Source: Kribbella pratensis
GTDB taxonomy: Bacteria > Actinomycetota > Actinomycetes > Propionibacteriales > Kribbellaceae
Direction: 5' to 3'
DNA: 64,000 nt
Assembly (NCBI RefSeq): GCF_004366075.1
Contig: NZ_SODU01000002.1
Span: 1,488,758 to 1,552,757 of the forward strand
Position numbers and translations under genes: made by a program. Of the stretch, positions 13,867 to 17,148 are shown piece after piece (within the stretch, counting starts at the first letter, position 1; every line of letters starts with the position of its first letter). The notes under the pieces are model-generated. The model searched no databases and was not told where the DNA came from. It saw only the letters and a program-made list of their open reading frames with translations.

Positions 13867-13911
13867 AACGGGCGGTTGAACCGTGAACGGCGCGACGTAC
13901 CGTGGGTAGCT

Positions 13912-14343
13912 GTGAGCCTGGGCCTGTGGGTACTCGTCGCGGCGGTAGTGGCCGGCGTGGGGCTCAGTGTGCTCAAGGCCTGGGTCGACGGGCGGTTTCG
14001 CGGGAAGAGTGAGGACGACGTGGAGCGCGTGACGGCCGCGGACTTGGGTGGGGAGCTGGGCGAGCGGGCGACGCTGCTGCAGTTCTCGTCGGCGTTCTGT
14101 GCGCCGTGCCGCGTCACGCGGCGGACGCTCGCCGAGGTCGAGTGCATGGTCGACGGCGTACGTCACGTGGAGTTGGACGCCGAGTCCCACCTGGAGCTGG
14201 TACGCCGGCTCGACATCCTGCGTACGCCGACGACGCTGGTGCTCGACAGCACCGGAGCCGTCGTGAAGCGCGCCAGCGGAGCACCGCGGAAGCCGGACGT
14301 GATTGCCGCGCTGGCCGTCGCGATCGACCGCCAGCCGAGCTGA
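13912..14343 (+). CDS. Membrane-anchored thioredoxin-like protein (ThiX-like)
   Basis: A 143-residue protein with an N-terminal membrane helix (about 4-22) and a thioredoxin fold holding a CAPC redox pair (SSAFCAPCRVTRRTL) and a cis-Pro loop (RTPTTLV). GTG at 13912 is chosen over an in-frame TTG at 13876 because TACCGT (13898-13903) lies 8 nt upstream. In mycobacteria a comparable gene (thiX) sits next to the sulfurtransferase cysA2 and sseC2. Here the same set of functions lies within 3 kb, with the RDD gene between, so a link to sulfur or thiol chemistry is plausible but inferred. Confidence 0.82.
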   Translation: MSLGLWVLVAAVVAGVGLSVLKAWVDGRFRGKSEDDVERVTAADLGGELGERATLLQFSSAFCAPCRVTRRTLAEVECMVDGVRHVELDAESHLELVRRLDILRTPTTLVLDSTGAVVKRASGAPRKPDVIAALAVAIDRQPS

Positions 14344-14403
14344 CAACGTCCGGTACGTGTCACCGGATGGCCAATGAACCGGGACTTAGGCAAGACTCTC
14401 CCG

Positions 14404-15258
14404 GTGAGCTCCCAAGTAGCAGGTTGGTACGACGACCCTGAGGACCCGACCCAGCAGCGGTACTGGGACGGCAACGCCTGGACGGATCAGCGTCGCCCGC
14501 AGGAGGGCCCACCCCCGTTCCAGGGGCAGTTCGGCCAGCCGAAGACGCAGGACTTCCCGAAGTACGGGCAGGCCGCGGAGCACGGACAGGTGTACGGCGG
14601 CGGATCGGCCCAGTCGCCGGGTCAGTCACCGTCGCAGTTCGGCCAGCAGGCCCCGCAACAGGGCGGCTACCCGGCGTACCCGCAGAGCAGCCAGGGCTTT
14701 GGCTACCAGGCCCAGGGTTCCGGCACCACCCCGGACGGTCAGATGCTGTCCGGTTGGTGGCGCCGTGTGTTCGCGCGCATCATCGACTCGATCCTCGCCT
14801 GGTTCATCGCCTTGCCGCTGACCGGCTACTTCTACTACCAGTCCAGCAAGGTGATGAACGCCTGGGTGGAGGACGTGCTGGACGCCGCTCGTGCCGGTAG
14901 CTCGACTCCGGTCTCCGTGCCGCCCGAGGTGTTCAAGTGGGCCATCCCGGCGTCCCTGCTCGGGGCTCTGGTCATGTTCGTCTACGAGTACCTGTTCCTG
15001 GTCGCGAAGGGCCGCACTCCCGGCAAGATGGCGACGGGGATCGCGGTCCGGCTGCGGGATGCGCCGGGCAAGCCGCCGCGCGGGGCCGCCGCGAAGCGAT
15101 CTGCGCTCCTCCTGGTGCTGACCATGGCGGGCTCGATCCCGGTTGTCGGCCTCTTCGCCTCCCTCGCGCTGCTGCTCAACTACCTCTGGCCGCTGTGGGA
15201 CGACAAGAAGCAAGCGCTGCACGACAAGATCGCCGCGACGAACGTGGTCCGCGTCTGA
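14404..15258 (+). CDS. DUF2510 and RDD-domain membrane protein
   Basis: A protein of about 284 residues. The N-terminal DUF2510 motif (GWYDDPEDPTQQRYWDGNAW) is followed by a Gln/Gly/Pro-rich linker (about 35-115) and an RDD transmembrane domain with three or four helices. The RDD signature Arg-Asp pair is in RRVFARIIDSILAWF, and KGRTPGKMATGI is the conserved cytoplasmic loop. The function of the family is unsettled; some members transport ions or compatible solutes. GTG at 14404 puts the DUF2510 motif at the N-terminus; an ATG at 14374 adds ten residues and cannot be excluded. Confidence 0.83.
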   Translation: MSSQVAGWYDDPEDPTQQRYWDGNAWTDQRRPQEGPPPFQGQFGQPKTQDFPKYGQAAEHGQVYGGGSAQSPGQSPSQFGQQAPQQGGYPAYPQSSQGFGYQAQGSGTTPDGQMLSGWWRRVFARIIDSILAWFIALPLTGYFYYQSSKVMNAWVEDVLDAARAGSSTPVSVPPEVFKWAIPASLLGALVMFVYEYLFLVAKGRTPGKMATGIAVRLRDAPGKPPRGAAAKRSALLLVLTMAGSIPVVGLFASLALLLNYLWPLWDDKKQALHDKIAATNVVRV

Positions 15259-15335
15259 ATCCACGGCACGCGTCCACAGTTTGATCAGTTGTCTCACGTG
15301 ATGGGACCACGGGTGGTGTGCCCGCCGAGGTTCCG

Positions 15336-15341
15336 TAGTCT
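15336..15341 (+). promoter_or_regulatory. -10 element of the sulfur operon leader
   Basis: TAGTCT lies exactly 6 nt before the GTG of the leader peptide, so transcription should start on that GTG and the mRNA would be leaderless. No good -35 is seen, as is common for such promoters in actinobacteria. Confidence 0.65.
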
Positions 15342-15347
15342 CGTTGC

Positions 15348-15428
15348 GTGGTTTACACGACATGGCTGACGAAGCGACGGGCAGTGGACAACTGCCGCGT
15401 CCGCTCTTCGCTGTGTCGTCGCCGCTGA
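15348..15428 (+). CDS. Cysteine-containing leader peptide of the sulfur operon (26 aa)
   Basis: A short frame from GTG 15348 to TGA 15426-15428 encodes 26 residues. The middle reads KRRAVDNCRVRSSLCRRR, matching the RRxVDxxRVxSxLCR pattern shared by putative leader peptides before sulfur genes in Streptomyces and relatives. Cys residues are at 16 and 22. It starts at the predicted transcription start, lies 114 bp before the DUF4395 gene, and is followed at once by a foldable RNA. Translation pausing at Cys codons could control the operon according to cysteinyl-tRNA supply. Such cysteine-responsive leaders are known in mycobacteria; the role here is inferred. Confidence 0.72.
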   Translation: MVYTTWLTKRRAVDNCRVRSSLCRRR

Positions 15429-15430
15429 CC

Positions 15431-15489
15431 AGGCGGCGTCCCGAGCGCTGCGGAACCGGTCGCTGAGCACGGTTCCGCGTACGTCGCCT
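15431..15489 (+). promoter_or_regulatory. Candidate attenuator RNA structure
   Basis: Directly after the leader-peptide stop, AGGCGGCGT (15431-15439) pairs fully with 15481-15489 (one G-U). Inside it, GCGGAACCG (15450-15458) pairs perfectly with 15470-15478. A ribosome stalled near the end of the leader would cover the outer 5' arm and change the fold. The 53 nt from here to the DUF4395 start hold its Shine-Dalgarno (CGGGAG). Confidence 0.6.
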
Positions 15490-15542
15490 CCCGCAGACCC
15501 GGGCGGGTTCCGGCTCGACATCCTCCTTCACCGGGAGTCGTC

Positions 15543-15989
15543 ATGTCCGAACAACAGACGGCACAACAGGTCGATCCGCGCGGTCTCCGGTTCGCGGCCG
15601 GCGTGACCACGGTCGTCCTGGCGCTGACGCTCGTACTGAACAACCCCTGGCCGCTCGCGGTGCAAGCCGTGGTGTTCGCGATCTCGGTCGCGTTCGGCGT
15701 GAGCGCGTCGCCGTACGGGTTGCTGTTCAAGCGGCTGGTCCGGCCCCGGCTGGGCCCGCCGAAGGAGCTGGAGGACGCGGCCCCGCCGCGGTTCGCCCAG
15801 TTGGTCGGCCTCGTCTTCGCGGTCGTCGGTCTGGTCGGGTACCTGACCGGCGTGACCGTCCTGGGAGTGGTCGCCACCGGATTCGCCCTGGTCGCCGCGT
15901 TCGTGAACGCGGCCGTCGGGCTCTGCCTCGGCTGCGAGGCCTATCTGCTGATCCACCGCATTCGTACGCCAACCACCGCTACCAACTGA
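15543..15989 (+). CDS. DUF4395 membrane protein
   Basis: A 148-residue integral membrane protein with about four hydrophobic helices and the DUF4395 signature GLCLGCEAY near 127-135, which contains a conserved CxxC pair. It is the first gene of an operon with a sulfurtransferase and a DUF1416 protein, an arrangement widespread in actinobacteria. This suggests handling of a sulfur species at the membrane. No enzymatic activity is known to me for the family. Expression is probably controlled by the upstream leader. Confidence 0.88.
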   Translation: MSEQQTAQQVDPRGLRFAAGVTTVVLALTLVLNNPWPLAVQAVVFAISVAFGVSASPYGLLFKRLVRPRLGPPKELEDAAPPRFAQLVGLVFAVVGLVGYLTGVTVLGVVATGFALVAAFVNAAVGLCLGCEAYLLIHRIRTPTTATN

Positions 15990-16001: not shown

Positions 16002-16850
16002 ATGAGCAGGGAATCCGCGCTCGTCTCGGCCGACTGGGTCGAGGAACACAAGAACGACGCCGGTGTCGTCCTGATCGAGGTCGACGAAGACGTCTCGGCG
16101 TACGACGCCGGCCACATCGCCGGAGCGATCAAGCTGGACTGGAAGGACGACCTGCAGGACCCGGTCCGGCGGGACTTCGTCAACAAGGACCAGTTCCAGG
16201 CGCTGCTGTCCGATCGCGGCGTCAAGAACGAGGACACGGTCGTGCTGTACGGCGGCAACAACAACTGGTTCGCGGCGTACGCGTACTGGTACTTCAAGCT
16301 CTACGGCCACGGTGACGTGAAGCTGCTCGACGGCGGCCGCAAGCGCTGGGAGCTGGACAGCCGCGAGCTGACCGACGAGGTCGTGAAGCGCGAAGCCACG
16401 GAGTACAAGGCGAAGGACCCGGACCTGACCATCCGCGCCTTCCGCGACGAGGTCAACGAGGCCATCGGCGTGAAGAACCTCGTCGATGTGCGGAGCCCGG
16501 ACGAGTACGCCGGCCGGCTGCTCGCGCCGGCGCACCTCCCGCAGGAGCAGGCGCAGCGCGCGGGCCACATCCCGACCGCGGCGAACATCCCGTGGAGCAA
16601 GGCGGCCAACGACGACGGCACCTTCCGCGCCGACGACGAGCTCAAGCAGCTGTACGCCGACGCCGGCGTCGACTTCGGCAAGGACACGATCGCGTACTGC
16701 CGGATCGGTGAGCGCTCGGCGCACACCTGGTTCGTGCTGCACGAGATCCTCGGCCAGGAGAACGTGAAGAACTATGACGGTTCCTGGACCGAGTGGGGTT
16801 CGCTGGTCGGCGTACCCGTTGCTCTCGGCGACGAGCCCGGGGAGGCCTGA
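16002..16850 (+). CDS. Two-domain sulfurtransferase (thiosulfate sulfurtransferase, CysA2/SseA type)
   Basis: A 282-residue protein with two tandem rhodanese domains. The N-terminal, inactive domain spans about 1-140. The catalytic C-terminal domain carries the persulfide-forming Cys233 in YCRIGERSAHTWF. The CRIGER loop is typical of actinobacterial CysA2-type enzymes that move sulfane sulfur from thiosulfate. It lies 12 bp after the DUF4395 gene and immediately before the DUF1416 gene, as in mycobacterial cysA2-sseC2. It has been named cysA in some genomes but is not a sulfate-transport ATPase. Confidence 0.93.
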   Translation: MSRESALVSADWVEEHKNDAGVVLIEVDEDVSAYDAGHIAGAIKLDWKDDLQDPVRRDFVNKDQFQALLSDRGVKNEDTVVLYGGNNNWFAAYAYWYFKLYGHGDVKLLDGGRKRWELDSRELTDEVVKREATEYKAKDPDLTIRAFRDEVNEAIGVKNLVDVRSPDEYAGRLLAPAHLPQEQAQRAGHIPTAANIPWSKAANDDGTFRADDELKQLYADAGVDFGKDTIAYCRIGERSAHTWFVLHEILGQENVKNYDGSWTEWGSLVGVPVALGDEPGEA

Positions 16851-16851
16851 C

Positions 16852-17148
16852 ATGTGCGGAGCGAAGCAGGGCGGACTCGACCTCAAGGGCGTGGACGTCG
16901 ACAAGGAGGCCGTGATCCAGGGCCAGGTGCTGCGTGGCGAGGAGCCGGTCGGCGGCGCGTACGTGCGGCTGCTGGATTCCACTGGTGAGTTCACGGCCGA
17001 GGTGCCGACCTCGGCGACCGGGCACTTCCGGTTCTTCGCGGCGCCGGGCAGCTGGACGCTGCGGACGCTGGCCCCGAAGGCCGACCCGGTCGACCGTCAG
17101 GTGGTCGCGCAGTACGGCGAGGTCGCGGAAGTGGCCGTCACTGTCTGA
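16852..17148 (+). CDS. sseC: DUF1416 protein (SseC-like)
   Basis: A 98-residue protein starting MCGAKQGGLDL, the invariant N-terminal Cys motif of the SseC/DUF1416 family, followed by an immunoglobulin/transthyretin-like beta domain (FRFFAAPGSWTLRTLA). The ATG at 16852 is preferred because GGGGAGG lies 7 nt upstream and it begins 2 nt after the sulfurtransferase stop. It is third in the sulfur operon. Its biochemical role is unknown; it probably partners the sulfurtransferase. Confidence 0.9.
   Translation: MCGAKQGGLDLKGVDVDKEAVIQGQVLRGEEPVGGAYVRLLDSTGEFTAEVPTSATGHFRFFAAPGSWTLRTLAPKADPVDRQVVAQYGEVAEVAVTV

Follow-up and report, generated by a model that had tools for sequence, protein, structure and literature searches.

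A putative cysteine leader peptide akin to Ms5788A, with a conserved UGU codon, ahead of a sulfur operon in Kribbella

A short reading frame ahead of a sulfur operon in Kribbella pratensis is likely to encode a leaderless cysteine leader peptide related to Ms5788A of mycobacteria, with ribosome stalling at its Cys codons setting expression of the operon. The frame and the stems behind it are real features of the window, by which we mean the whole stretch of 64,000 nucleotides that was analyzed. Read from the sequence, the case comprises the frame and its kinship, the conserved peptide with both of its Cys codons, the conserved stems, and the operon.

An initial annotation had placed a 26-codon frame behind the hexamer TAGTCT. 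Six bases do separate the hexamer from the GTG, and the frame runs for 26 codons to a TGA at 15426-15428 (Table 1). The Cys residues of the peptide had been assigned to codons 16 and 22. The first is correct (TGC), while the second lies at codon 23 (TGT). These two residues, seven codons apart, are the only Cys of the leader, and it has no poly-Cys tract. The two-part hairpin described behind the stop codon was found with both of its stems, all pairs being standard ones including G-U, and the dinucleotide CC lies between the stop codon and the outer stem. The genes that follow are the sulfur operon that had been named, with DUF4395, rhodanese sulfurtransferase, and DUF1416 each matched by profiles. 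The sulfurtransferase is of the CysA2 type, and the DUF1416 protein is presumably SseC-like. No two-hexamer sigma-70 promoter match was found at the leader. Preceding the leader is an RDD-family gene (14374-15258), and upstream of that, on the same strand, is a gene for a thioredoxin-like protein (13876-14343).

Table 1 Features of the leader region and the operon, in positions of the window.
Feature	Position	Strand	Evidence
TAGTCT, -10-like hexamer	15336-15341	+	6 nt before GTG; TANNNT kept in the genus
Leader ORF MVYTTWLTKRRAVDNCRVRSSLCRRR, 26 codons, GTG start, TGA stop	15348-15428	+	Frame, HMM matches, conservation
P1, leader-ORF hairpin, arms about 15357-15385/15391-15419	15357-15419	+	Genus leaders more stable than synonymous recodings
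14-residue core R-x-x-V-D-x-x-R-x5-C, codons 10-23 of the leader	15375-15416	+	Common to four further leaders of the genome
Cys16 codon TGC, core position 7	15393-15395	+	TGC in 38/38 genus genomes
Cys23 codon TGT, core position 14, proposed sensing codon	15414-15416	+	TGT in 38/38 genus genomes
P2 outer stem 15431-15439/15481-15489, with inner stem P2b 15450-15458/15470-15478	15431-15489	+	Alignment of 36 distinct sequences
P3 hairpin 15490-15494/15503-15507	15490-15507	+	All pairs in 34/36; one pair with two-sided changes
P4 hairpin 15523-15527/15533-15537, pairing the Shine-Dalgarno GGGAG (15533-15537)	15523-15537	+	All five pairs in 31/36
DUF4395 protein	15543-15989	+	PF14340 1.8e-48
Rhodanese sulfurtransferase, CysA2-type	16002-16850	+	PF00581 6.6e-33, two matched stretches; NF008557 2.9e-35, below its cut-off
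DUF1416 protein	16852-17148	+	PF07210 2.2e-41

A DUF4395 orthologue was identified in all 38 genomes of the genus Kribbella, each with the leader frame upstream. The GTG, TGC16, TGT23, and TGA are kept in all 38, as are the string TKRRAVDNCR and both Cys residues. TANNNT also precedes the GTG in every genome, at a spacing of 6 nt in 25 and of 7 nt in 13. The expectation that the RRxVD...C pattern and both stems would be conserved in related genomes was borne out within the genus. Outside the genus, Cys16 is encoded by TGC in 44 of 45 leaders and Cys23 by TGT in 42 of 45; L100 and L109 fall outside the pattern of this count, and both have TGT at that place. Many other leaders carry a residue other than Cys at core position 7. 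In other families, too, the same core was found ahead of DUF4395 or sulfurtransferase genes. Among named loci reached through their DUF4395 relative, 22 out of 26 have a leader upstream: nine from Kribbella, which overlap the 38-genome set (DUF4395 identity 83-98%), and 13 from outside it. The genera represented outside Kribbella are Mycobacterium, Mycolicibacterium, Rhodococcoides, Phytohabitans, Spongiactinospora, and Streptosporangium, and leader-bearing loci were also observed in MAGs of Mycobacteriaceae, Mycobacterium, and Nocardioidaceae. No leader was found upstream in the other four of these DUF4395 loci (L138, from Streptomyces griseus, L139, L140, and L143). In the DUF4395 leader of Phytohabitans maris, the first Cys is replaced by Gly (HGR versus HCR) and the last Cys is kept as TGT. 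That only the last Cys is kept there argues for it being the essential one.

We compared the leader with the curated families of leader peptides. It matches NF042933, the 'Ms5788A family Cys-rich leader peptide', with an E-value of 4.9e-8 over profile positions 5-24 of 27, and NF042934 (cis_reg_atten putative leader peptide) with an E-value of 6.6e-5, in both cases below the curated cut-off (32.5 bits against 45 and 22.4 bits against 27, respectively). At E <= 0.05, NF042933 matched 126 of 196 genomes of the order, none of them over the cut-off, and 25 of 296 genomes of the phylum, seven of them over it; one of 14 control genomes matched in each search. NF042934 at E <= 0.001 matched 85 of 118 genomes of the class, 72 over the cut-off, and none of the 14 controls. 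In searches at E <= 10, control genomes matched in 10 of 14 and 8 of 14 cases, so weak single matches mean little. No Rfam family, known riboswitches included, matched at its gathering score in the whole window.

Judged by these matches, the Kribbella leader is a relative of the mycobacterial Ms5788A cysteine leader and probably its orthologue. Both are short frames with the core TKRRAVD-x-CR ahead of a DUF4395/sulfurtransferase operon. They differ in that the named Mycobacterium loci have a poly-Cys tract (for example TKRRAVDLCRVAGCCCCCCSC), which the Kribbella leader lacks, and in that the Kribbella leader ORF itself folds as a hairpin. With the NF042934 leaders it shares the core R-x-x-[VI]-D-x-x-R-x5-C and a last Cys encoded by UGU, but core position 3 is Ala in Kribbella and His in most of that family. 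A mycobacterial Ms5788A-type cysteine leader was reportedly the subject of a study by Canestrari et al. in 2020.

The initial annotation had described cysteine leaders as known from mycobacteria and Streptomyces. Excerpts of the literature agree for mycobacteria. Cys leader peptides were predicted ahead of cys operons in 2005 (PMC1262725), and a 2015 study described a short frame with clustered Cys codons ahead of mycobacterial cysA2, with ribosomes on its M. smegmatis counterpart (PMC4633059). Canestrari et al. were later credited with showing that frames of contiguous Cys codons could control the translation of genes behind them in M. smegmatis (PMC9031893, 2022), and six such frames were predicted to be regulatory in another Mycobacterium (PMC9094748). 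For Streptomyces the description found no match: the excerpt of PMC8079986 names eight leader peptides and assigns none of them to cysteine. The leaders of the Mycobacterium and P. acnes cys operons and of B. longum cbs, as excerpted from PMC1262725, resemble that of Kribbella in having Cys codons near the stop in a frame upstream of a sulfur operon. They contain runs of Cys, whereas the Cys residues are separated in Kribbella. The same excerpt gives no conserved terminator hairpins for Mycobacterium; in Kribbella, stems with two-sided changes follow the stop codon, and there is no terminator either.

We analyzed the codon of the last Cys in 148 leader loci, comprising 5 from the genome itself, 4 from the NF042933 set of the phylum, 9 second leaders of the genus, and 130 places of the class chosen among the NF042934 matches listed in score order rather than taken from every row. 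The scan used the pattern R-x-x-[VIML]-D-[LFN]-x-R-x5-C, which fixes R1, D5, R8, and C14 partly by construction and leaves the codon of C14 free. The core was present in 146 of the 148 loci and, by hand, also in L168, where the codon is TGT; L264 has no Cys at core position 14. The C14 codon was found to be TGT in all 134 distinct 42-base cores. In the same scan, Cys at position 7 was encoded by TGC 46 times and by TGT 4 times, and the remaining Cys codons between R1 and the stop were TGC in 101 cases and TGT in 26. The Cys codons of 77 downstream genes were TGC 102 times and TGT 7 times (7/109). Third-base variation amounted to 1.89 bits at R1 and 1.43 at R8, with 0.13 at C14. An overlapping set that adds the TKRRAVD leaders contains 163 distinct cores, 160 with TGT and 3 with TGC at C14; the three exceptions (L101-L103) are TRRRTVD leaders with several Cys. 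The leaders reached via DUF4395, without a leader model, have TGT in 22 out of 22 cases (17 distinct cores; 13 out of 13 outside Kribbella). The leaders are related and these counts are not independent events. The other Cys codons of the same leaders are equally related and still differ. Among the papers listed for this subject in an open-licence library, we found no mention of a UGU preference in such leaders.

RNA structure was considered as a general reason for UGU and rejected. The third base is unpaired in 61, paired with A in 51, and paired with G in 22 of 134 predicted folds, and replacing UGU by UGC made the fold more stable in 63, less stable in 31, and about equal in 40. With pairing this variable and UGC often the more stable choice, structure does not explain UGU in general. 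In the P1 of the window, UGU23 is predicted to pair with the ACA of codon 5, and this ACA is present in 29 of 38 genus genomes. Codons that are rare in the genes of the window sit in P1, namely TGT (13.7% of 73 Cys codons), GCA (6.3%), and ACA (3.1%). A tRNA search of the genome identified 55 places, two of them tRNA-Cys and both with the anticodon GCA. As this is the only tRNA-Cys anticodon found, UGU would be read by wobble.

The usual picture of stalling at Cys codons does not require UGU at the last of them. We propose that UGU has been chosen as a putatively slower codon that is more sensitive to supply, and that the fixed Arg/Asp frame, lying in the exit tunnel, may add to this sensitivity. 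In the TnaC arrest peptide of E. coli, Trp12, Asp16, and Ile19 lie 12, 8, and 5 residues from Pro24. A ribosome awaiting Cys14 of the core would place R1, D5, and R8 at the same 12, 8, and 5 residues from the P-site residue. The two peptides have no sequence relation and concern different signals, and the parallel is one of spacing alone. One tentative reading, to which we give limited credence, is that the leaders are single-codon sensors and not Cys counters, with one nearly invariant UGU, read by wobble and set at a constant distance after R-x-x-[VI]-D-x-x-R, as the sensor, and a nascent peptide in the exit tunnel that heightens sensitivity to Cys-tRNA at that codon. If this is true, the response should weaken when UGU is replaced by UGC, and likewise when the Arg/Asp residues are altered. 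Neither the UGU preference nor the fixed Arg/Asp frame is peculiar to the Kribbella leader, both being shared by the leaders sampled. They sharpen the picture of stalling at cysteines into one that can be tested by a synonymous change, and they suggest a part for the peptide itself.

To characterize the stems, identical sequences of the genus were collapsed from 38 to 36. Across these 36, the structure formed by P1, P2, P2b, P3, and P4 has 91.5% of cells paired (shuffled mean 90.2) and 8 pairs with two-sided changes, against a shuffled mean of 2.0 and with none of 500 shuffles as high. This support comes mainly from P2b, in which 6 of 13 pairs have two-sided changes. The outer stem of P2 is fully paired in all 36 and varies only between G-C and G-U. 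The number of further pair types was a weak measure (28 versus 25.6, with 37 of 500 shuffles as high). When the structure was slid along the alignment, only 33-50% was paired. The folding energy after the stop codon was not unusual in the window's own sequence (z 0.09 against 100 shuffles). In a set of 60 loci, the 14 nt that follow the stop paired with distant bases only slightly more than in shuffles (6.1 versus 4.9), and this pairing was zero in most loci of families f6 and f7. We also observed a P2-like stem after the leader stop in loci of family f3 of the same order (L061, L072-L076, L079, and L080). These have an inner CTGAG(C)/GCTC helix with a second GC-rich hairpin right behind it, and their string CTGAGC recurs in the P2b loop of the window.

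In the mechanism that we favor, a leaderless mRNA would start at the GTG at 15348, with the cysteine leader peptide as its first frame. When charged Cys-tRNA is scarce, the first ribosomes would pause at the Cys codons and above all at UGU23, a codon that this genome would read only by wobble. A ribosome waiting there would hold R10-x-x-V-D14-x-x-R17 in its exit tunnel. The ribosome position would then decide whether P2 forms. The 5' arm of P2 starts two bases beyond the stop codon, and judging by the size of the footprint, this arm would be covered when the stop codon occupies the A site and free when the ribosome waits at Cys23. The state of P2 would set the translation, or the Rho-dependent readthrough, of DUF4395, the sulfurtransferase, and DUF1416, and expression of the operon would rise as cysteine falls. 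What we infer here is where transcription starts, that ribosomes stall, which way the response goes, and how stalling is linked to expression.

Several forms of this last link were examined and rejected. A local hairpin at the Shine-Dalgarno sequence was predicted in all 37 sequences compared. For a simple switch by Shine-Dalgarno exposure, we placed the leading edge of the ribosome at 16 positions, one of them 'no ribosome', on the 36 distinct genus sequences, and the mean unpaired fraction stayed at 0.045 to 0.077 throughout. In only 8 of 37 sequences did a ribosome at Cys23 make the site cheaper to open than one at the stop did, and the mean difference of 0.96 kcal/mol went the opposite way. 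Simple exposure is unsupported, because equilibrium folds keep the site paired and misorder the two states. Terminator-based attenuation was set aside as well, as no intrinsic terminator-like site was found in 15250-15560. Long-range pairing of CTCCCG (15488-15493) with CGGGAG (15532-15537) has all six pairs in only 23 of 36 sequences, pairing of codons 24-26 with the 5' arm of P2 is kept in only 21, and pairing of 15442-15446 with 15513-15517 in only 24. A best-partner scan of the DUF4395 start region, in which L067 and L070 had no start codon found, gave no partner that was kept throughout. The initial annotation had called the region a cysteine leader and attenuator of a sulfur operon, in which stalling changes the RNA fold. 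The Cys leader peptide akin to Ms5788A is upheld by the HMM matches, the conservation, and the operon. The change of fold is not borne out in the forms examined, with no terminator-like site, a Shine-Dalgarno sequence paired at every ribosome position, and an opening no cheaper at Cys23. Kinetic folding or Rho could supply the link.

Rho is also central to an alternative that retains the same leader and makes the control transcriptional. Here, an untranslated, Rho-accessible stretch after the stop codon would lead to the termination of transcription if shielded by neither a stalled ribosome nor P2. Such a role fits predicted folds that leave the Shine-Dalgarno sequence unexposed. A role for Rho in Mycobacterium, P. 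acnes, and B. longum was also put forward in the excerpt of PMC1262725, where the authors call the prediction weak. The location of the Shine-Dalgarno sequence in a conserved hairpin points instead to translation, and we regard purely transcriptional control as possible but rather unlikely.

We also considered whether the RNA element from P1 to P4 is what is conserved, with the peptide being incidental. Stability of the leader ORF was compared with that of synonymous recodings, with the peptide fixed and the codon usage of the window applied to every lineage. The 30 distinct genus leaders were more stable than their recodings (mean z -2.71; 28 below -1 and 22 below -2), which speaks for such an element. 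Across all 69 leaders, the mean z was -1.53 and 11 were above zero. The leader of the window (L005, L104) was left out of the wider sets for non-genus codons, recoding, post-stop pairing, and start-region partners, and L001-L004 were also left out of those for recoding and start-region partners. P1 has no two-sided changes and 85.8% of its cells are paired; in 9 of its 26 upper pairs the only departures are unpaired cells, and all ten pairs of the run 15357-15366/15410-15419 are present in 11 of 36 sequences. In these predicted folds, the stability of P1 is a feature of the genus and, to a lesser degree, of part of its order. Despite the same peptide core, P1 is unfavored in L089-L091, which are above zero in the recoding test and termed mycobacterium-like for their likeness to named leader loci, and it is near zero in family f6, whose six leaders scatter from -0.60 to 1.61. 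Third codon positions vary while R, D, and R are constant (in one set partly by construction of the pattern), and this also holds for the 13 non-Kribbella leaders found without a leader model. Leaders with the same core moreover recur before unrelated operons. An incidental peptide is improbable in view of these findings.

The upstream ORF might only deliver ribosomes to DUF4395 by reinitiation, without sensing cysteine. A leaderless GTG start followed by a hairpin-held Shine-Dalgarno sequence would suit this role, and reinitiation at leader genes is proposed in the excerpt of PMC4833913. Set against it are the 114 nt between the leader stop and the DUF4395 start codon, and the fixed Cys codons and sulfur genes would be left unexplained; we consider reinitiation alone very unlikely. 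A chance frame, which GC-rich DNA could offer (68 short frames of at least 20 aa in 5.5 kb), is already refuted by the 38/38 conservation, the HMM matches, and the recurrence before the same operon, and its probability is negligible.

The cysteine leader is not the only one of its kind in the genome. The NF042934 search uncovered four more short frames with the same 14-residue core (L001-L004), two of which pass the cut-off of 27 bits. One precedes an amino-acid ABC permease, which NCBIfam matches best to a cystine permease at a score below cut-off. The others precede a TauE-type exporter, a flavin reductase, and a NIR/SIR-type reductase, the last with ferredoxin-nitrite reductases and then sulfite reductases as its best NCBIfam matches, below their cut-offs. 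A second leader with an internal TGA in at least nine genus genomes was considered as a case of recoding and rejected, as the nine loci (L144-L152) are ordinary leaders ending in Cys-TGA, such as LLRVASATC-TGA. Another leader match of the order, from a different family (G117:C38:90587-90649), has one internal TGA.

By its sequence, then, the Kribbella leader appears to belong to a known kind, the cysteine leader peptides, and not to be an oddity. The near-invariant UGU and the stability of the leader-ORF hairpin are what the present comparison adds. A cysteine leader is now placed in Kribbella, with at least five leaders of one core in a single genome. Several of these leaders precede genes that could serve sulfur metabolism, and the five or more may share a cysteine response. 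The presence of one core in at least five leaders, several of them before possible sulfur genes, makes a shared cysteine response outside the mycobacteria likely.
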